Virus record (IMG/VR): IMGVR_UViG_3300047552_000036
Span: 1 to 22,144 of that record
DNA: 22,144 bases
Strand: one strand, 5' to 3'
DNA from: a virus
Program-made: the position numbers and the translations under genes
The notes under the pieces: model-generated
The model's input: the letters and a program-made list of their open reading frames with translations, nothing else
Databases searched by the model: none
What the model was told of the DNA's origin: nothing
Shown here: positions 3,714-18,786 of the stretch, one piece after another
Numbering within the stretch: position 1 is the stretch's first letter
Layout of the letters: each line of letters begins with the position of its first letter

Positions 3714-3986
3714 TCAAAAAGGGATGTCGTCGTCAGCCATTGGCTGATACGCATTAGCTTTTGCTTTGCTGTGAGGTGTGACAGGAGCCATTGGTTGTTC
3801 ACCACGAGGCTCAACAGGATTACCCAACTTGAGGCTGAACCAGACATCGCCAGTCTTCTGATCCACATTACGCCAGGCAGACAACCAGAATTGTTGTCCA
3901 GTGGAATCAGTCCACTTGCCTGTCAGATCAGGATGAGAGTCTTTCTCTTTGCGTGGGTTCTTACGCAGATTGCCTTTAGCTTCCAT
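3714..3986 (-). CDS. Small SSB-like protein with acidic DDDIPF tail
   Basis: At 90 residues it is about half the usual length of bacterial SSB. It begins with a KGNLRKNPRKEKDSHPDLTG segment, continues as short strands (FWLSAWRNVDQ, DVWFSLKLG), then a Pro-rich linker, and ends ADDDIPF. The acidic tail closing in DIPF is the classic SSB C-terminal hook that recruits replication and repair proteins. The strand-rich core could be a minimal OB-like fold, but that is inference. A strong AAAGGAGAT ribosome site sits before the ATG at 3986. It is the first gene of the packaging operon and follows a leader of roughly 270 nt. Confidence 0.72.
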   Translation of the reverse strand: MEAKGNLRKNPRKEKDSHPDLTGKWTDSTGQQFWLSAWRNVDQKTGDVWFSLKLGNPVEPRGEQPMAPVTPHSKAKANAYQPMADDDIPF

Positions 3987-4239
3987 GTTTATCTCCTTTT
4001 ACTGAAGCTGTTGAACAAAGGTGTTGGGTCTTGCGTCCAAGCACTCCTAAGAATGGGTATTTCTACCGCCACCAACACAACTGAAGACTGTCAGCAAGCA
4101 CATACGATCTTACGGTAGTACGACGGTTTGCAAGCCTTTTAACCGTTCAATCCTCATGCGTGTTGTCCCTGTCTTTCCAAGGTGTCAGTCAGTGGGCCTG
4201 TAAGCTCTATGTGGGTTGATAGAACACCACCAACGAAAT

Positions 4240-4250
4240 AATGATATCAC
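4240..4250. promoter_or_regulatory. AATGATATCAC operator candidate, copy 1
   Basis: These 11 bp are identical to 11096-11106 in the divergent control region and contain the palindrome TGATATCA. Here they lie about 12 bp downstream of a candidate leftward -10, where a bound repressor could block the packaging operon. The ribbon-helix-helix protein at 10868-11077 is one candidate binder; this is inference from the shared site. Confidence 0.35.
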
Positions 4251-4262
4251 ATACCATAGCAA

Positions 4263-4289
4263 ATTACACAACATTTACTTGTTTGTCAG
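4263..4289 (-). promoter_or_regulatory. Candidate leftward promoter for the SSB/terminase operon
   Basis: Read on the minus strand: CTGACA at 4289-4284 (5 of 6 matches to TTGACA), a 15-bp spacer, then TGTAAT at 4268-4263 (5 of 6 to TATAAT). The spacer is shorter than ideal. It would give a leader of about 270 nt before the SSB-like start at 3986. Confidence 0.3.
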
Positions 4290-4473
4290 GAGTATCTGTG
4301 GCATAGTACACACATGGGGCCATCACTCAGCCCTCCAGACGGTAGGCAGCTAACCAACTGGGATAAACGTACCGAATCCATTGGGACTTCTAGTAGCCAG
4401 ACAGCGAACGGGGCCATACAGGTGGAGCCAGCAAGTGACAATTGCTAGTTAGGTTAGATAAACAAGGTGCTGC

Positions 4474-4487
4474 ATCCACTTGTGGAT
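4474..4487. repeat. Inverted repeat ATCCAC-TT-GTGGAT
   Basis: Perfect 6-bp arms with a 2-bp centre. The small spacing suits a protein-binding site better than an RNA hairpin. It is the left edge of the repeat-rich region next to the initiator-like gene. Confidence 0.5.
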
Positions 4488-4490
4488 ACT

Positions 4491-4508
4491 CTCACTTTTT
4501 TTAGTGAG
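4491..4508. repeat. Inverted repeat CTCACT-N6-AGTGAG with a T-rich loop
   Basis: Arms at 4491-4496 and 4503-4508 enclose six T residues. There is no T-tract after the stem on either strand, so it is not a standard terminator. It follows the previous inverted repeat by 3 bp. Confidence 0.5.
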
Positions 4509-4588
4509 TGCCATAGTTCGTCCATCAAGTAGGTCTAACAGCATTCAGCTAACAGCCAACAACCGAGCATTCCTCGGCAGTTCCAGCA

Positions 4589-4640
4589 GGCTGATTACTG
4601 AAAAAAAATTGCTGTACGGCTGATTATTGAAAAAAAATTG
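4589..4640. repeat. Two 23-bp direct repeats with A8 tracts (iteron-like)
   Basis: Copies at 4589-4611 and 4618-4640 differ at one position (C or T at repeat position 10) and have a 29-bp period. Each starts GGCTGATTA and ends with eight A then TTG. Near-perfect short repeats with phased A-tracts next to a replication-initiator-like gene resemble plasmid iterons or an unwinding element. With only two copies, a regulatory pair is also possible. Confidence 0.65.
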
Positions 4641-4663
4641 TGTCAGGTATCCCAACGCTAGGT

Positions 4664-4686
4664 GGGGGGTAGGGAGGGGGAAAGGG
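4664..4686 (+). other. Canonical G-quadruplex motif
   Basis: Four G runs on the plus strand: G6 at 4664-4669, G3 at 4672-4674, G5 at 4676-4680 and G3 at 4684-4686, with loops of 2, 1 and 3 nt. This fits the standard four-run pattern with short loops. It lies between the A-tract repeats and the CCTGCAC heptamers. Confidence 0.75.
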
Positions 4687-4708
4687 TGTCTTCGCTGCAA
4701 AAGTGAAA

Positions 4709-4793: not shown

Positions 4794-5474
4794 CTAGCTT
4801 AGTAATGCTTTTAGTTTATCTTGCACTTGCTGAAGCGTAGCGCCTTCGCCGCATTGATCCAGCGCCACGGCTAGCAAATCGGGGCCTACCGCCTTTTGTA
4901 GCTGCAATACTTGCGCTTCATTGATTGAATTATTTACTTTATCAACACTAATGCTATCTGATTTTAGATTATTAGCCACTATAAAAGATAAACTGCCTTT
5001 GTCTTCTTTGCGTTTGCGTGCCATTGGTTTGCTCTCTTTCAGTTGATTAAGTGATTGATTTATAAACTCTTTTTGTTCTCTGTCTATCATGTACGGCGGC
5101 TTTTCCCCGCTGACTGCGACTATATCTTCAATGCTTAGGTCGTTGAAGATGATCTGGCGGGTTTGCGCTCTCTCGCCCATGAATCCTTTGTATAGCACGC
5201 GCACGTAACCTTTGGCTATTAGCTTACGGGTTAGCACACTGGCGCGGTTCACCTTCACACCCAGGTGTTTGCCTACTGTCTCTAATCCTACCCATGTGAT
5301 GCCGCCTCGGTTTGCATAGCTGCATAACACCATAAGGCAGCGCAACTCCATTTGAGTTAGGTTTCTATCAGCGGCGGCGCGTATTGGAACGACTGTAAAC
5401 TGGCGCTGATCTGGCGCCTTCTCTTTGCGTATCAGCTTTGGTTTCTTTGGTAACTTAATCGGGGTTTGCTGCAT
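4794..5474 (-). CDS. Winged-helix replication-initiator-like protein
   Basis: A predicted 226-residue protein from the ATG at 5474. Its N-terminal half has a winged-helix pattern of the HTH_36 type: NLTQMELRCLMVLCSYA, then TWVGLETVGKHLGVKVNRAS with a recognition helix, then LIAKGYVRVLYKG as the wing. This domain is common in phage and plasmid replication proteins. The C-terminal half is hydrophilic and ends in a helical LQQVQDKLKALL. Helicase motifs are absent, so it would act as an origin binder. A terminator sits just upstream and a repeat-rich non-coding region just downstream, which supports a replication role. The start is uncertain: a GTG at 5489 and a TTG at 5495 are also in frame, and no clear ribosome site is seen. 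A plain transcription regulator is the alternative. Confidence 0.62.
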   Translation of the reverse strand: MQQTPIKLPKKPKLIRKEKAPDQRQFTVVPIRAAADRNLTQMELRCLMVLCSYANRGGITWVGLETVGKHLGVKVNRASVLTRKLIAKGYVRVLYKGFMGERAQTRQIIFNDLSIEDIVAVSGEKPPYMIDREQKEFINQSLNQLKESKPMARKRKEDKGSLSFIVANNLKSDSISVDKVNNSINEAQVLQLQKAVGPDLLAVALDQCGEGATLQQVQDKLKALLS

Positions 5475-5495
5475 AGCTACATTATGCACAAGCAA

Positions 5496-5517
5496 TAAAA
5501 AAGCCCCCGAAGGGGCT
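5496..5517 (-). terminator. Rho-independent terminator after the KorA-like gene
   Basis: On the minus strand a 6-bp stem, AGCCCC with GGGGCT, encloses a 4-nt loop and is followed by about six T residues. The other side carries a run of A, so it may work on both strands. It ends the small-gene operon just before the initiator-like gene, which must then use its own promoter or read-through. Confidence 0.85.
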
Positions 5518-5522
5518 AAAAA

Positions 5523-5726
5523 CTAGGTTACATGCCGCGCTAACCTTTGCACCTCGCGCAGCCTTCGTACCGCCGCGCTGATTGTCGTTTGTTGACAATC
5601 AAGCATTTGCGCCGCCTTCGTTTGCGTTAGCCCGTTGACTAACACCAAAGCCGCGCCCTTCGCCGCTATGCTTTGCGGGTTTATGCGGGTTAACTGGATC
5701 AATGTTTTGTATTCGTGAAGCGTCAT
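5523..5726 (-). CDS. KorA/TrfB-like transcriptional repressor
   Basis: The 67-residue protein starts MTLHEYKTLI. A helix-turn-helix covers about residues 33-58 (GLTQTKAAQML, then TTISAAVRRLREV). The preceding AAKGAALVLVNG matches the layout of KorA/TrfB of IncP plasmids, where the same ARG-LV-G segment leads into the helix-turn-helix. KorA represses plasmid replication, partition and transfer promoters. The ATG at 5726 begins 4 nt after the upstream stop at 5731; a longer frame to 5777 would run into that gene. A terminator follows. Loss of the KorA C-terminal dimer domain would explain the short length. Similarity is by eye. Confidence 0.65.
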   Translation of the reverse strand: MTLHEYKTLIQLTRINPQSIAAKGAALVLVNGLTQTKAAQMLDCQQTTISAAVRRLREVQRLARHVT

Positions 5727-5730
5727 TGGG

Positions 5731-5892
5731 TTAGCTTTCTGGATGTGGGTTTTCAAAGCATGATTGAGCCACATCAATCAACAATGAGGCTTCCTCATAC
5801 GTTAGCCCGTGATGCTCCGCAAACTTTTCAATCGTAAAATAATCATTGACCCACGATAGATAGAGCCTAGAAAGTGATTCGCGGTCAATCAT
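5731..5892 (-). CDS. 53-residue plasmid/phage accessory protein
   Basis: Translation gives MIDRESLSRLYLSWVNDY... with FAEHHGLTYEEASLLIDVA and an end at NPHPES. The ATG at 5892 overlaps the upstream TGA as ATGA, and GAAGGGGGCGCA precedes it as a ribosome site. The WVNDYFTIEKFAEHHG-type pattern is one I know from small plasmid and phage proteins that often sit next to KorA-like genes. The helix spacing hints at a small helix-turn-helix, but no function is known to me. Confidence 0.8.
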   Translation of the reverse strand: MIDRESLSRLYLSWVNDYFTIEKFAEHHGLTYEEASLLIDVAQSCFENPHPES

Positions 5893-6122
5893 TGCGCCCC
5901 CTTCAGTTGCTTAACTTGCGCGTCAAAGAATCGGCGTGCTTGCTTCAAAGTATCGAAGCACTCCCACAGAAAGCGCCCTTTATCGTCGCTACGTGCTTGC
6001 ACATGGGTGCAACCGTCAACAAAGAGCGACACCGTAACGCCTCCCGCTTGCTTTGTCTCAATGTAGCCGCAAGCTAATGCGTAAGGGGTCAAACGCCCCG
6101 CCTTAGTCTTAAATTTATCCAT
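5889..6122 (-). CDS. 77-residue small protein of unknown function
   Basis: It starts MDKFKTKAGRLTPYALACGYIE and ends in a helix with FFDAQVKQLKGAQ. The middle (VTVSLFVDGCTHVQARSDDKGRFLWECF) reads as several strands, so an alpha-beta fold is likely. The ATG at 6122 has AAGGGG about 7 nt upstream and overlaps the previous gene by 8 bp. It is preferred over a longer frame to 6182 that would run deep into that gene. No catalytic motif is visible. Confidence 0.78.
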   Translation of the reverse strand: MDKFKTKAGRLTPYALACGYIETKQAGGVTVSLFVDGCTHVQARSDDKGRFLWECFDTLKQARRFFDAQVKQLKGAQ

Positions 6123-6267
6123 TGATAGCCCCTTTGTGTTGATCTTTGAACATAGCCACGGCTTCGCGCTTTGTGTAGCCAAAATATTGCTCTTGAACCA
6201 GATAACCGCCCACGATAGCTGAAACCCGCCAAGCGCCTTGCATTGTTTTTTCAGTTGATACAGTCAT
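6115..6267 (-). CDS. 50-residue small protein of unknown function
   Basis: Translation gives MTVSTEKTMQGAWRVSAIVG, then a GYLVQEQYFGYTKREAVAMF stretch, ending KGAING. The GYTKREAVAMF helix pattern recurs in small proteins of plasmids and phages that I recall, without known function. AAGGGG lies about 8 nt before the ATG at 6267. Its end overlaps the next start by 8 bp. The neat fit between neighbours supports it as a real gene. Confidence 0.78.
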   Translation of the reverse strand: MTVSTEKTMQGAWRVSAIVGGYLVQEQYFGYTKREAVAMFKDQHKGAING

Positions 6268-6278
6268 TGTTTAACCCC

Positions 6279-6605
6279 TTAAAAGTTAAGGTAAACAAAA
6301 CAATCGGCAACTTGGGCGACAAACGCGCCTTCGTCGCTTAGATAATCGGCTACGGCTTGCTGCTTTTCTTCGTCGTCGTCGCATTCGTCAATGCTTACTC
6401 CGTACTGGTGCGCTATGTTTTCCCAAGTGTCTTCGCTAAAGTCACAACAAATTGCAATTACATCCAGCTCTAATTCTTCGCCCGTGTCTTGCTCCCATTG
6501 CTCTAAGTATTCAAACAAAGCCCCCAAGCCTTCATAAGAAAAGTTATCGGGGCGGCATTCTTGAAAAGCGCGGCGAAATTCGTATTGATTAACCGTTTGT
6601 TTCAT
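6279..6605 (-). CDS. Conserved acidic protein of unknown function
   Basis: This 108-residue protein starts KQTVNQYEFRRAFQ and contains PDNFSYEGLGALFEYLEQWE, then a strongly acidic middle (EELELDVIAICCDF, then DECDDDEE), ending FVYLNF. I recall this layout, with an RPxNFSYEGL box and an IELDVIAICCDF box, from many plasmids and phages, where it has no known role. A clear AAGGGGAATACC precedes the ATG at 6605. The charge resembles DNA-mimic proteins, so an anti-restriction role is imaginable, but this is speculation. Confidence 0.82.
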   Translation of the reverse strand: MKQTVNQYEFRRAFQECRPDNFSYEGLGALFEYLEQWEQDTGEELELDVIAICCDFSEDTWENIAHQYGVSIDECDDDEEKQQAVADYLSDEGAFVAQVADCFVYLNF

Positions 6606-6615
6606 GGTATTCCCC

Positions 6616-6810
6616 TTAGTTCATGTTGACAAAATCAAGCGGCAAAAGTTGCAACCCGTTGTGGTTGTTAGCCTTCATAAAAGCCGCGACGTATTGAGCC
6701 GTTGTCATTGTTTCGCCGCCCTTGGGGTAGGCGCGTTTGACTGTTGTTAGCTCACGCTTACGCGCAGCCATGAATTTACGGATAGCGGGGCATTGTGTTG
6801 ATTTACGCAT
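6616..6810 (-). CDS. Small basic protein of unknown function
   Basis: The 64-residue product has a basic N-terminal half (FMAARKRELTTVKRAYPKGG) and a short C-terminal part with AQYVAAFMKANNH. AAGGGGGCTAACC directly before the ATG at 6810 is a good ribosome site and settles the start. Eleven nt separate it from the start of the next gene's ribosome region. No fold or function can be named. Confidence 0.65.
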   Translation of the reverse strand: MRKSTQCPAIRKFMAARKRELTTVKRAYPKGGETMTTAQYVAAFMKANNHNGLQLLPLDFVNMN

Positions 6811-6821
6811 GGTTAGCCCCC

Positions 6822-6986
6822 TTAGTCTTCGATTGATCCAGCGACGCTATACATAGCAACGACGCACGAAACAATAGCAAGCAAGCCAAGAATGGCATTG
6901 ACCAAGCCCAAGCCAATACCCAAGCCAATAACACCGATTGACATTAGGCAAAACACACAAAAGAAAGCGGGAAAAAAGTTAGTCAT
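6822..6986 (-). CDS. Small two-span membrane protein
   Basis: The predicted protein has 54 residues from the ATG at 6986, which has GGAG 9 nt upstream; in-frame starts at 7001 and 7025 lack a ribosome site. Residues 3-30 form a first membrane span with a GVIGLGIGLG turn, and residues 31-48 form a second (ILGLLAIVSCVVAMYSVAG). It is the first gene of the plasmid-like module. Its role is unknown; small holin-like or exclusion-type proteins look similar. Confidence 0.7.
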   Translation of the reverse strand: MTNFFPAFFCVFCLMSIGVIGLGIGLGLVNAILGLLAIVSCVVAMYSVAGSIED

Positions 6987-7055
6987 TTTCAAATGCTCCA
7001 TAAGTAGGAAGGTTTTTTGAATCATCCAGCGGCCTAATTGCTACTGGATGCACAA

Positions 7056-7586: not shown

Positions 7587-7764
7587 CACCATGCCTTATA
7601 CGGATACGCAATGCAAAGCCCCAAGCCAAGCCCCATACAACCCACAGAATGCGGTGTTCCATAGGCCATTCACCTGGATTGCTGTTCCAGTTCACAAAAC
7701 CCATCAAGCAGTACGTCACAGCCAGCATGATTGGATAGGCAATGTGGTCAATGTAGTCTTTCAT
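7567..7764 (-). CDS. Small membrane protein
   Basis: A 65-residue protein with two likely membrane spans: IAYPIMLAVTYCLMGFVNW near the N-terminus and ILWVVWGLAWGFALRI near the C-terminus. AAGGAG about 9 nt upstream and an ATGA overlap with the previous gene support the ATG at 7764. Function unknown. Confidence 0.72.
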   Translation of the reverse strand: MKDYIDHIAYPIMLAVTYCLMGFVNWNSNPGEWPMEHRILWVVWGLAWGFALRIRIRHGDGSRWI

Positions 7765-8006
7765 GTGTTCTTCTCCTTGAGTTTTTGCTCAACGTGCCAT
7801 GCAAGCCAATGCCGACTTTTTCCTTCGCTGTCTTTCGTCAAGTTTATTGAATCTTCATCCGTCAGCCCAACCCATGTGCGAACGGTAGTGGAAGGTTGTT
7901 GTGGTTCATTAAGTGCGCTGCGAAGACATCTCACGATTGCTGGATTCCCAACCACAGCACCCATCTCAATCAGCTCAACAACTGCTTCTACTGCTTCAAT
8001 ACTCAT
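7761..8006 (-). CDS. Small phage protein with WVGLTDED segment
   Basis: The 81-residue product has an N-terminal helix (SIEAVEAVVELIEMG), a middle linker and a C-terminal part with TWVGLTDED and LAWHVEQKLKEKN. The LTDED motif echoes the LTDEQL segments of the next gene upstream, so it may be a distant member of the same set of duplicated small genes. AAGGGGGAAGC precedes the ATG at 8006, which overlaps the upstream TGA as ATGA. Confidence 0.75.
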   Translation of the reverse strand: MSIEAVEAVVELIEMGAVVGNPAIVRCLRSALNEPQQPSTTVRTWVGLTDEDSINLTKDSEGKSRHWLAWHVEQKLKEKNT

Positions 8007-9027: not shown

Positions 9028-9513
9028 TCACTGTGGTAAGCATTCTTCTTCCTTAATCATCTTGGCTCGTTTCAATCTGATCTCACGCTCGACAATGGAC
9101 AATGCCTGCTCAAGCTGCTTGACTGTGCATTCGTCTAGCTGTGCATCATGCACATCCATGCCCAAGTTCACAGCCTGCATCTCAGGTCCTGTAAACAAGA
9201 ACTTGTCGCCATTGCGTAGACCACGTTTGCCCATCTGGTAGATGGCTTCTTGTGCAGCGTTAATCTCTGCTCTCCAGTCAGCACCAAGACCCATCATGCC
9301 AAGCGCCTCTGCCACATTCATGGCTGCGATAACCAAGTCTATGTCGTCACGCTTACCTCTACCTTGCGTGATGTTTGCCAGCGCATCATGGTTCTTAATC
9401 TTCAGCGCCAGCCCTGCGTGTTGCACTTGAGACACAGGCTTCATTCCTGACAACACCCATGCCATCGTGTCCAAGCGAACACCTTTTGGTTTGTATTTGC
9501 TTTTCTTTTTCAT
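9028..9513 (-). CDS. Conserved phage protein of unknown function
   Basis: The 161-residue protein begins MKKKSKYKPKGVRLD and has the blocks MAWVLSGMKPVSQV, IKNHDALANITQGRGKRDDID, and MQAVNLGMDVHDAQLDECT. I know this order from a family found in many Burkholderiales and Pseudomonas phages, without assigned function. It reads as all helical with a basic N-terminal tail. The ATG at 9513 overlaps the upstream TGA as ATGA, so the longer frame to 9576 is rejected. Its neighbours are DNA-metabolism genes (HNH/HTH protein, RusA), which hints at replication or regulation. Confidence 0.8.
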   Translation of the reverse strand: MKKKSKYKPKGVRLDTMAWVLSGMKPVSQVQHAGLALKIKNHDALANITQGRGKRDDIDLVIAAMNVAEALGMMGLGADWRAEINAAQEAIYQMGKRGLRNGDKFLFTGPEMQAVNLGMDVHDAQLDECTVKQLEQALSIVEREIRLKRAKMIKEEECLPQ

Positions 9514-10010
9514 CGCATCAGCCCTGCAAATGGTGATGTGTAGCGAATCCAAGACTTGCCAGCACGGATACGACACACTAAGCTCTTGTCCACACCATAT
9601 CTAGCAGCGACTTGGCGGCTTGGCTCGTCAGACAAGCGAATCTCGTCAGCCTGCTCCCATGTCAGTTTGCCTACTGTGCGCTGCTTGAACGCCTGAATCT
9701 TTACCTTGCGTGTGATGCTTCCACCTGCACGTTTGCCCATGTGCTGTGTGAACTGCTTGGGTGACAACAACTTGCTGTGGTCAGGGTTGACGCACACAGA
9801 ATTGCCACACTTGGGTAGCACGAACCAGCCTGCTTTTACTGGATTGCCCATCAGATCGCGGAATAAGCGACGAACAGATGTCATCTTGCCATCGTGAGAC
9901 ACGGCTGGAACCTTGTTGCCAATGTAGCCAGTCCAATTCCAGCAATCGCCTTCTTCAATTGTTCTCGCTTTGAGCGATTCAATCGTGTGTTTTGTAGTTT
10001 TTCTTGTCAT
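9510..10010 (-). CDS. HNH-like protein with C-terminal helix-turn-helix
   Basis: At 166 residues it starts with a degenerate HNH-like region: GDCWNWTGYIG, then VRRLFRDLMG and a metal-site-like CGNSVCVNPDH. A basic linker follows (KRAGGSITRKVKIQAFK). The C-terminus has a helix-turn-helix, LTWEQADEIRLSD then QVAARYGVDKSLVCRIRAGKSW. The CVNPDH box is found in phage HNH endonucleases, but the central catalytic His pair seen in active enzymes is not clear, so it may only bind DNA. The ATG at 10010 shares a base with the upstream stop (TAATG). Confidence 0.78.
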   Translation of the reverse strand: MTRKTTKHTIESLKARTIEEGDCWNWTGYIGNKVPAVSHDGKMTSVRRLFRDLMGNPVKAGWFVLPKCGNSVCVNPDHSKLLSPKQFTQHMGKRAGGSITRKVKIQAFKQRTVGKLTWEQADEIRLSDEPSRQVAARYGVDKSLVCRIRAGKSWIRYTSPFAGLMR

Positions 10011-15496: not shown

Positions 15497-16023
15497 GCTT
15501 CAGGCCATCCTTGTGCAGAAACAACAACAACTAATTCCTCAACAGTAGAGCAACCAGCAATGGCAGTCTCTAAGCGATTAGCCTTTGTGATGATTGCAGC
15601 ACGTTTAGCTACAACAGCATCAGGAATTGCAACATCACGCTCAACCTTACGGACAACCATCCAATCAGTCTGAGACAGCAACTTGCCAGCAGTGTCTTTG
15701 ATTTGAGCAATCCACTGTGACTTCAAGCCTTTGTAGATCACTTGCTCGTCAGTATCAACCATGCTTTCAGTCTCAGCGTCATAGCGTTGCACCATAAAAG
15801 GTGTGCCGTCTGCTTTAACTTCTAAGCGGTCTTCAAGCTGCTTTGGTGAGTTCACGCCCCAGTAGAAACGTTGGTCATAAACAGGCGCATCATCTTCTTC
15901 TGTGATACCAATTGCAGCTCGTTCCTCTGGTGAGGCAAGGCGCAGCCAGTTGGCAGGATAAGAAATTTCATTGCACTCAAATGGAGTGTCAATGGCTAGT
16001 GGTTTTCCGTTTATTTTGAACAT
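15493..16023 (-). CDS. Tail-fibre-assembly-type protein
   Basis: The 176-residue protein starts MFKINGKPLAIDTPFECN, contains PANWLRLASPEERAAIGI and ends in the region LLSQTDWMVVRKVERDVAIP, then RLETAIAGCSTVEEL and SAQGWPE. The SQTDWMVVRKxER block is a feature of phage proteins encoded after tail fibres, often annotated as tail assembly proteins or chaperones. It sits two genes after the large tail protein, with an HNH gene between, which fits that idea. The ATG at 16023 shares a base with the upstream stop (TAATG). Confidence 0.7.
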   Translation of the reverse strand: MFKINGKPLAIDTPFECNEISYPANWLRLASPEERAAIGITEEDDAPVYDQRFYWGVNSPKQLEDRLEVKADGTPFMVQRYDAETESMVDTDEQVIYKGLKSQWIAQIKDTAGKLLSQTDWMVVRKVERDVAIPDAVVAKRAAIITKANRLETAIAGCSTVEELVVVVSAQGWPEA

Positions 16024-16499
16024 TACTGAACCTCGTAAGAGTTGTGTTTAATCATATTTTCTTTGGCTGGCAAGTATTGAAGATTGTTTTCAACGTGCAA
16101 GCCAGAAACATACTTTCCGCGCAGAGGGATTATGTGGTCAACGTGGTGTCCGTCAGGTCGATTTACGTATATCTCTCTGATCTTGTCCATATCCGCCCAT
16201 GATGGTCGTTGACGGATTTCTGCAATCTCGCGCATACGGCTGTGAAATCTTGCATACCCTTTTGTTCTTGACTGGCCATGCTTTATATTTGCCTTGCCTT
16301 GTAATGGACATGACACCTCAATGCGATAACAGCCACATGACTTCGTATGCCCTGTGCGCAATTTCTTTCCATCAACGCATACGTTTTTTCCACACGCACA
16401 AACACAATTCCATGCAGCACGAGTGCCAACGTTATCGGCGCGACTAACAACAGTCAGCCGATTAAATGTTTGTCCTGTAATGTTGATTAGCTTTCCCAT
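16023..16499 (-). CDS. HNH endonuclease with N-terminal zinc-binding part
   Basis: A 158-residue protein starting MGKLINITGQTFNRLTVVSR. Cys32, Cys34, Cys36 and the later SCGC (Cys55, Cys57) form a likely zinc site of the kind found before many phage HNH domains. The HNH core follows: GHHVDHIIPLRGKYVSGLHV with the His-Asp-His centre, ENNLQYLPAKENM with the Asn. Homing endonucleases of this kind insert between phage genes. It lies between the large tail protein and the tail-assembly-type gene. The ATG at 16499 begins one base after the upstream stop and is preferred to a frame from 16547. Confidence 0.88.
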   Translation of the reverse strand: MGKLINITGQTFNRLTVVSRADNVGTRAAWNCVCACGKNVCVDGKKLRTGHTKSCGCYRIEVSCPLQGKANIKHGQSRTKGYARFHSRMREIAEIRQRPSWADMDKIREIYVNRPDGHHVDHIIPLRGKYVSGLHVENNLQYLPAKENMIKHNSYEVQ

Positions 16500-16500
16500 A

Positions 16501-18786
16501 TCAACGCGCCAGACTATTCTTAAATGGTGCATCTGCCCAAGCAGCATAAATCCAAGTGCCTGAGAATCCTGAATTACGCATCTTGAATCCGTTTGAAAGA
16601 ATATCCAAATCTGTCACTGTTGATTCAGCGTTTGAAAGGTTTGGATACAACTCAGCGCCAACAACGTTGTAAGTGTTTCGCACAGTGTCCCACATAATCC
16701 AATTGCTTGTGCTGTCTGTACGCTTCAACATAACTAGCTTTGGCAAGAACCCTGTGAAAACAAACGCTCCGTCTGCCGAGCCGTTCATTGTCACGCTTCC
16801 GAACTTGGAGTAGCCAGCGACTTCTGCGAATAGGTAAGCAACGTAGGTTACACCATTGCTATTGCTGTCTGACCCACTGCCAAGCGTAAACTGTGTGCTG
16901 GTTGGCGAAGTGTTGTTCCAGTAAACACTGCTTGCAAAAACAGCATTGGTTAGGTTTAGATAGACTGCGCTCGTATTGCCAAGAGATGTGTGATAGGCAG
17001 TCCAGTTTGATGTGCCACTTCTTGCTTTCACAAAAATCATCTTTGGCGCAACACCAAGAGAGTGTGCCACGTTTTGCGTTGAGCCGTTACCCGTATAGGT
17101 CACAATGTCAAAGCCAGAGGTGATTGATTCTTTCCAGAGCCAATTTACAAACGGATATGTGTTATCAAATGAACCATTAACACTCAAACCATCTGAGTTG
17201 AACGATGTAACACCACTGCCAGCAGCTTCTGCCGAGGTAGAGTTTGATTTCAGGTAATTGCCAATTCCAGTAACGGAGTTGACAAGAATATGATTACCAC
17301 CGCCAGATGTTCTGTTTTTCCACCAAACAAAATCAGGCTGAAACCCAATTCCAGAAACACTTTGAACACCGCCGTTTCCAGTTATAAGTGCAACATCAAA
17401 ATACTGGTTGCCCTTCTTGATAGTCGCATCAGGCAAGTTCTGCGTGTTCAGCGCCTTGAAGCCTGTGGGTGGTGTGTAGGCGAAGGGGCGTTGGCCGAAG
17501 TTGATTGATCCACTCCATGACGGAGTTCCCCCGCCACCGTTACTAAATGCAGGAAAAAATGCTCCTACTAAACCAGTTGTAGCAGCTCCTTGGCTTACAT
17601 TGTTTTTATAAAAGGTAAGTGTTCCAGCATCCATGTCAAGAGCTATACCAATTACATCATTAGTCGTGTATGTAGCGCCATACGAAGATGCAGTACCGCC
17701 AATGAACTTCTGACCACTATTACCGTAATAGTAATAAGCATTGGCAGATGTGTACGTATCTAATCCGCCACCATTGATAACACCTATCATTGGAGTAGGA
17801 GTAGCTCCGACAGAACTAACGGTTGTCTCCCAATACCATTTCCCTGACGAAACGCCGATTGTTGTTTCGTTTACATCAAGTGCGGCAGTTTGAGAAAACG
17901 TCAGGTTTGCGTTACTGGTTGATGCGCCAGACGATTTCCAGATCGGATTCAAAACCGCATAATTCCCACGCCCATTCCCACCATCAGCGTAAGGCGTTGG
18001 CACGTCCAGCATTGAGTCGTAGGTAGCACCAGCAGTCACGCTGATGTTGTTAGGTGTCCAGTTGTTGCCGTTGCCAGAGTAGTCCTTGCCAATGGTGGCT
18101 GCGGTGTTGTTGCTGTTGTCTGAGAAGTTCAGATAAAAGCCGTTTGTGCCGTATGTGCCAGCGTACTTCTTGGGCTTCCACACACCAGTGACTGCATCGG
18201 TTTCACCGAAGCTGCTAGGTGTCAGGGCTTGACCGTCGATGAAGTTGACTTCGGTTAGGTAGCCGTCAAAGAACGTGTCAGTCAAATTTGTGGTGTTGTT
18301 TCCAATAGTGTGTCTATTGGTTGTGTTTACCCACGATGCAAGACTTGAAGACGGGTCGGTTGATGTTGAAAACGCAGTGATGCGACTGCCGTTCAAATAG
18401 AGACGAACCCTATCCGATGCGGTGGCGTTGGTGCTGTCATAGGTAAGAACAACGTGATACCACGCAGATGGGTCTCGCAGTACTTGCGTTGTGGTCTTAT
18501 TCCAAACCTGTCCAGTCCCGTCGTTGTACTGGTAGCTTTGAAGAGTGTCGCCTGCAAACAGAAGAAGCGTGAAGCCGCCTGTTGGCGGTTTGTACGCGCC
18601 AAATAACATTCCACTATTCAGGATGCCGCGCTTGACCCAACCACTCCAAGTCCAAGTTGTTTGGTTGGTTGCGCTTGCTGGTGTCCGATTGAAATACGCT
18701 GAAGCACTTGAACGCAGACGCACAGAACGGCTGATCTGGTAGCCATCCTCACCCATCAGCAGTGGTGTTGAATTGATTACGCTCAT
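16501..18786 (-). CDS. Large tail protein with LamG/concanavalin-like and SPRY-like domains
   Basis: The 761-residue protein starts MSVINSTPLLMGEDGYQIS. Residues up to about 200 form a LamG-type jelly-roll: SGWVKRG, DRVRLYLNG, then GYLTEVNFIDGQAL. After a linker (YSGNGNNWTPNN) comes a SPRY-like domain with SGKWYWETTV and GIALDMDAGTLTFYKN. The C-terminal third repeats a related pattern (VTYTGNGSTQNVAHSLGVAPKMIFVK). Such domains bind sugars or proteins, so it is likely a receptor-binding or tail-fibre tip protein. The ATG at 18786 overlaps the upstream TGA as ATGA; a longer frame to 18906 adds a Cys-rich piece that is an artefact of the upstream gene. Confidence 0.78.
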   Translation of the reverse strand: MSVINSTPLLMGEDGYQISRSVRLRSSASAYFNRTPASATNQTTWTWSGWVKRGILNSGMLFGAYKPPTGGFTLLLFAGDTLQSYQYNDGTGQVWNKTTTQVLRDPSAWYHVVLTYDSTNATASDRVRLYLNGSRITAFSTSTDPSSSLASWVNTTNRHTIGNNTTNLTDTFFDGYLTEVNFIDGQALTPSSFGETDAVTGVWKPKKYAGTYGTNGFYLNFSDNSNNTAATIGKDYSGNGNNWTPNNISVTAGATYDSMLDVPTPYADGGNGRGNYAVLNPIWKSSGASTSNANLTFSQTAALDVNETTIGVSSGKWYWETTVSSVGATPTPMIGVINGGGLDTYTSANAYYYYGNSGQKFIGGTASSYGATYTTNDVIGIALDMDAGTLTFYKNNVSQGAATTGLVGAFFPAFSNGGGGTPSWSGSINFGQRPFAYTPPTGFKALNTQNLPDATIKKGNQYFDVALITGNGGVQSVSGIGFQPDFVWWKNRTSGGGNHILVNSVTGIGNYLKSNSTSAEAAGSGVTSFNSDGLSVNGSFDNTYPFVNWLWKESITSGFDIVTYTGNGSTQNVAHSLGVAPKMIFVKARSGTSNWTAYHTSLGNTSAVYLNLTNAVFASSVYWNNTSPTSTQFTLGSGSDSNSNGVTYVAYLFAEVAGYSKFGSVTMNGSADGAFVFTGFLPKLVMLKRTDSTSNWIMWDTVRNTYNVVGAELYPNLSNAESTVTDLDILSNGFKMRNSGFSGTWIYAAWADAPFKNSLAR

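Follow-up and report, generated by a model that had tools for sequence, protein, structure and literature searches.

The window, by which we mean the whole stretch of DNA analysed here, is an entire linear IMG/VR virus record of 22,144 bp, and is an incomplete fragment of a phage genome. Its gene products matched those of the Methylophilales phage MEP301 (MW452941), namely an acetyltransferase, TerL, TerS, SSB, RusA, YqaJ, Erf, a lysis protein, a SPRY-type tail protein and an internal virion protein, with identities of 74% for TerL, 63% for TerS and 62% for Erf. The two genomes also share their gene order. MEP301 is a podovirus infecting the marine OM43 clade, in whose genome its authors found neither an RNA polymerase nor a DNA polymerase (PMC8024684). 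Three genes that look from their sequence like putative homing endonucleases of the HNH/AP2 type (520-996, 9510-10010 and 16023-16502) are dispersed in the window. The region of interest consists of a run of small leftward genes, an initiator-like gene, a gap of about 800 nt and the start of the packaging operon, with the following features.

6822-6986, minus strand: hydrophobic small ORF, 54 aa (67 aa with a start at 7025)
6616-6810, minus strand: small ORF, 64 aa, with no family match
6279-6605, minus strand: acidic protein, 108 aa (phrog_9974)
6115-6267, minus strand: small protein, 50 aa, adjoining the 108-aa gene in locus L018 too
5889-6122, minus strand: small protein, 77 aa (phrog_16510, a family without known function)
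5731-5892, minus strand: small protein, 53 aa (phrog_26669 / phrog_4907, a family without known function)
5523-5726, minus strand: KorA/TrfB-type helix-turn-helix (HTH) protein, 67 aa, without a C-terminal dimerisation domain, from profile and fold matches
5502-5517, minus strand: terminator-like hairpin AGCCCCTTCGGGGGCT followed by TTTTT, separating the KorA-type gene from the initiator gene
4794-5474, minus strand: predicted winged-helix (HTH_36) O-like replication initiator, 226 aa, a core gene of MEP301-like phages
4589-4692, minus strand: candidate origin, a C-rich tract and then AT-rich direct repeats, immediately downstream of the initiator gene
4290-4525, minus strand: conserved RNA element, non-coding and structured, with two pseudoknots (matched by the model over 4291-4524), from covariation and reciprocal model matches
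3714-3986, minus strand: SSB-like gene (phrog_7364, phrog_18154), the first gene of the leftward packaging operon past the RNA

An earlier note had described this block as a plasmid-type replication and control module inside a phage genome. The seven small leftward ORFs (5523-6986), the hairpin, the 226-aa ORF and the flanking gaps were all found where it had placed them. Its statement that the block is set apart by AAGGGG-type ribosome sites held in part. Of the seven small genes, five have such a Shine-Dalgarno sequence; it is missing before the KorA-like gene, the initiator gene and 6822-6986, and also occurs before 7761-8006, which lies beyond the block. The gap next to the initiator gene, described there as repeat-rich and without genes, has one pair of 23-nt direct repeats (4589-4611 and 4618-4640), so that the first term was overstated, and it is not empty, since a C-rich/AT-rich core and a structured RNA, both conserved, lie in it. 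Repeat pairs of 14-16 nt are present in the right-hand gap. The 108-aa protein is a widespread phage protein of unassigned function; relatives were found in at least 60 viral contigs (loci L006-L065) and also in Campylobacter, Nitrincola, Psychrobacter and Edwardsiella phages, and a search of plasmids gave no match.

The product of 4794-5474 matched the Pfam HTH_36 domain with 35.8 bits (cut-off 25), and the same domain was detected in all 42 members of its family. Compared with PHROG, family members matched 'replication initiation protein' (41 of 42), 'replication initiation O-like' (38 of 42) and 'DnaD-like helicase loader' (29 of 42), the window protein by itself giving a weak match (E 0.017). 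Retrieval of relatives from IMG/VR required an alignment as the query, since the single sequence returned nothing. The structural model was of moderate confidence (pLDDT 75), and its fold matches, a mixture of MarR-like and plasmid-Rep-like winged helices, did not discriminate. These family-level matches bear out the initiator-like, winged-helix identity proposed in the earlier note, and assign the protein, as judged from sequence, to the phage O-like winged-helix initiators. It shares with lambda O-type initiators and DnaD-like helicase loaders the winged-helix DNA-binding domain and a place beside a candidate origin, in a group of phages that have no polymerase of their own. It differs in belonging to a separate family, in having a C-terminal part that is unmatched, and in that its origin is a candidate only.

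Immediately after the initiator gene, a C-rich tract with AT-rich runs was present in every clade and relative examined, with the consensus AAGGCACCC..CCCCC..GGG..CACAATTTTTCCC; in the window this core includes the 23-nt direct repeats (4589-4640). A putative origin is the natural guess for this core, with a putative terminator as the alternative. The simplest account is that the phage uses the replisome of its host, with a lambda-O-like initiator that would bind the adjoining candidate repeats and load that replisome.

The protein encoded at 5523-5726 scored 13.9 bits against Pfam KORA (PF16509), under the cut-off of 26.7, and its relative in locus L164 scored 27.3 bits, over the cut-off. Its hhalign comparison with RK2 KorA, the sequence of which was checked against PDB, gave 94.9%, and just 78% with a four-sequence, phage-only alignment. 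A ten-sequence profile, four of them from plasmids, matched KorA structures with an E-value of 5.7e-5. The AlphaFold model (pLDDT 93.5) had KorA as all 14 of its top PDB fold matches, with TM scores of 0.62-0.66 by query length and a best E-value of 9.5e-3, none falling below 0.001. The model, the L164 score and the hhalign result together uphold the KorA/TrfB-like identity given in the earlier note, and the protein is predicted to have the KorA fold. The match spans about residues 6-59 of the 101 of KorA. The window protein shares the helical N-terminal part and the HTH domain with the RK2 repressor, whereas it is only 67 aa long, lacks the C-terminal domain for dimerisation and KorB interaction, and sits in a phage early operon. 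The exact KorA operator GTTTAGCTAAAC was absent from the window, where an operator scan gave matches with two mismatches only. Plasmid relatives, found in 19 plasmid records, are annotated as 'TrfB-related DNA-binding proteins', the best being from a Halomonas plasmid (42%, E 3e-7). No relative was found in the bacterial genomes searched. The KorA-type gene precedes the initiator gene only within the subclade of the window; no KorA-type protein was detected by Pfam among the tested upstream ORFs of six loci from other clades. The HTH protein may repress the early operon. In Pseudomonas plasmids (L147 and L148) a phage NinX-family gene lies close to the KorA-type gene, and these neighbourhoods hint at traffic of the regulator between phages and plasmids.

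If the block were a captured plasmid-derived replication and control module, as the earlier note had proposed, the genome would be a rare phage-plasmid with IncP-like regulation. The plasmid relatives and the KorA fold of the small HTH protein speak for such an origin. In the plasmid neighbourhoods examined, however, the KorA-type gene lies amid hypothetical and phage-like (NinX) genes and not beside a replication gene, and the initiator and the gene order are common to the whole phage group. The initiator was absent from 72,556 plasmids, and no DNA similar to the block was found in plasmid records. Searches that gave matches in control genomes detected no integrase in 19 related virus records and no ParA in 17. 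Neither of the features by which a phage-plasmid was to be recognised, ParA or a plasmid-type initiator, was thus found, the window itself being an incomplete fragment. MEP301 gp55 is a homologue of the window initiator (35%), and in about 78 loci of MEP301 relatives we found one shared order of divergent Erf/YqaJ, leftward early genes, initiator, gap, SSB, TerS and TerL. The initiator gene is therefore standard in MEP301-like podoviruses, as are its location and the genes around it. For the initiator, this is the outcome that the earlier note had itself named as speaking against its reading, a cassette typical of phages with no plasmid connection; on the further point that such phages be strictly lytic, the text of the MEP301 paper gives no information. 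Because the arrangement is common in phages, we regard the hybrid claim as settled and the plasmid-module reading as largely refuted, with very little probability left to it. In MEP301, neither a KorA-type gene nor counterparts of the window's small genes were detected.

Alignment of the gap between the initiator and SSB genes revealed about 235 strongly conserved nucleotides at 4290-4525, and in some relatives this conservation exceeds that of the initiator gene. The element is present in about 30 close relatives and 20 marine-type ones, including MEP301, always on the strand of the initiator gene and downstream of it. An exact 18-nt pattern retrieved 32 contigs, 31 of which have the element beside the same phage genes (the exception being L176). 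A covariance model detected a strongly diverged copy, unannotated there, in MEP301 (33408-33619, minus strand) with an E-value of 6.6e-9 in 827 kb searched, and a second model built from marine copies only found the window copy at E 1.1e-8 and no RNA in other clades. Other MEP301-like clades (L072, L089, L116 and others) and L069 gave no RNA. In L069 (4720-5640) the initiator, SSB and TerS genes are kept, and the RNA models match nothing in the 921-nt gap. As sister clades lack it, the RNA is a separable device that is not essential to the replication scheme. In most relatives, the stretch from the RNA to the SSB gene contains a conserved promoter-like sequence, TGTGATAGCAT / TGTGATATCAT, at about 4230-4270 in the window.

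The element has no conserved reading frame, as stops occur in every frame (single rows in two frames excepted) and indels are not multiples of three. In MEP301 (L002) the hypothetical gene gp54 (33584-33730) runs in the same direction as the RNA and overlaps its edge; gp54 is probably not a gene. A search for tRNA and tmRNA found none. In the window and L209 stretches, Rfam matches did not rise above chance level (E 2.2-10), and in MEP301 no match reached the gathering threshold. A 23-nt degenerate pattern of the RNA had no exact match in any contig of 84,980 bacterial and archaeal genomes; blastn among 50,697 named phages found it only in MEP301, plus two short chance matches; and no non-coding RNA is mentioned in the MEP301 paper (PMC8024684). 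The folding energy of the single sequence is unremarkable (z 0.33), and single-sequence z-scores of this kind fail to reveal the RNA.

Its structure became apparent from covariation. Among 24 distinct sequences, 95.9% of cells in the hairpins were paired, with 80 double changes compared with 24 in shuffled alignments and at most 13 in slid controls. For five helices including both pseudoknots, 99.8% of cells were paired in 24 sequences, with 66 double changes versus 17.5 shuffled, and a second set of 11 sequences with both pseudoknots gave 95.9% and 34 versus 10.9. Since the structures were partly derived from the sequences tested, most weight is due to the slid controls and to the separate set of marine copies. 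The strands of the two pseudoknots lie as follows in the window.

4505-4510, minus strand: strand a, CACUCA, near the 5' end; partner 4324-4329
4324-4329, minus strand: strand a', UGAGUG, in the loop of the last (3') hairpin 4317-4320/4330-4333
4469-4473, minus strand: strand b, GCAGC, just before the first GUUUAUC; partner 4346-4350
4346-4350, minus strand: strand b', GCUGC, in the loop of hairpin P6

Strand b and the P6 loop vary in concert as GCAGC/GCUGC, GCAACA/UGUUGC, GCGACA/UGUCGC, GAUAGC/GCUAUC, GAUAGU/ACUAUC and GGUAGU/ACUACC, and as GAGCAU/AUGCUC in MEP301. Complementarity to the own partner averaged 5.5 nt, against 3.7 nt for shuffled partners (0 of 200 shuffles). Strand a and the last-hairpin loop are likewise found as CACUCA/UGAGUG, GCCC/GGGC, ACCC/GGGU and GAGCC/GGCUC. 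These results demonstrate that the element is conserved and that its pairing covaries; compensatory pairing and reciprocal model detection establish it as a new RNA family of MEP301-like phages.

Whether the conserved element acts as RNA was weighed against its being an untranscribed DNA element, a packaging site or an origin, with its hairpins acting as DNA. Its position between the initiator and the SSB and TerS genes would suit such a site, covariation is possible for DNA hairpins too, and the alifold z-score is more extreme on the antisense strand (-4.4 versus -2.9). Two long-range pseudoknots, each joining a loop to a distant strand, are however an RNA-type architecture. In the best-supported helix, the U.G wobbles are confined to one strand; one pair of P6 is U-G in 15 and U-A in 9 sequences, with no A-C, when read on the minus strand of the window, which favours that strand as the RNA sense. 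Moreover, the element is missing in clades that retain the C-rich/AT-rich core and the terminase. We consequently consider a DNA element unlikely. An RNA that represses SSB translation in cis or in trans is about as doubtful, if not slightly more so. For such a repressor, the conserved GUUUAUCU would pair with the SSB start AGAUAAACAUGG; the window has an inverted repeat (3983-3994 / 4456-4467) in which CCUUGUUUAUCU of the RNA is complementary to the SSB start at 11 of 12 positions, and loci L004 and L067 have an identical SSB start sequence. Yet GATAAAC is missing from the SSB starts of L005, L070 and MEP301, although the RNAs of all three retain GUUUAU, and the motif, which occurs twice in the RNA, may be structural. 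As it is not conserved, this pairing was given little weight.

We conclude that the block is very probably the native early and replication region of a MEP301-like podovirus, with a structured RNA that would act as RNA. Early genes, O-like initiator, C-rich/AT-rich element, structured RNA and SSB-terminase operon follow one another on one strand in a conserved order. The RNA would be part of, or cut from, a leftward transcript running into the SSB, terminase and structural genes. Its position suits a putative leader or anti-terminator that acts in cis on the leftward late operon, and suits as well a stable RNA acting in trans; the two seem about equally likely. Cis-acting antitermination RNAs of phages, such as put of HK022, are structured and lie upstream of a long same-strand operon. 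By description the window RNA resembles put and similar phage RNAs in both respects, and is set apart by its greater length, its two loop-to-strand pseudoknots and its having no Rfam match.

The gain from this region is thus the RNA, a well-supported fold without an Rfam relative, and the case illustrates that gene-free gaps in phage annotation can conceal highly constrained RNA. As the isolated phage MEP301, with its cultured OM43 host, carries the RNA, its function is directly testable. It is likely that MEP301-like phages from marine and other aquatic metagenomes possess a non-coding RNA of a new class. The molecule, which measures about 200-240 nt, has two GUUUAU motifs and a pair of loop-to-strand pseudoknots, lies between the initiator gene and the late operon, and would function as RNA, for instance as an antitermination leader acting in cis in place of a late regulator protein, or as an effector that acts in trans on the host.
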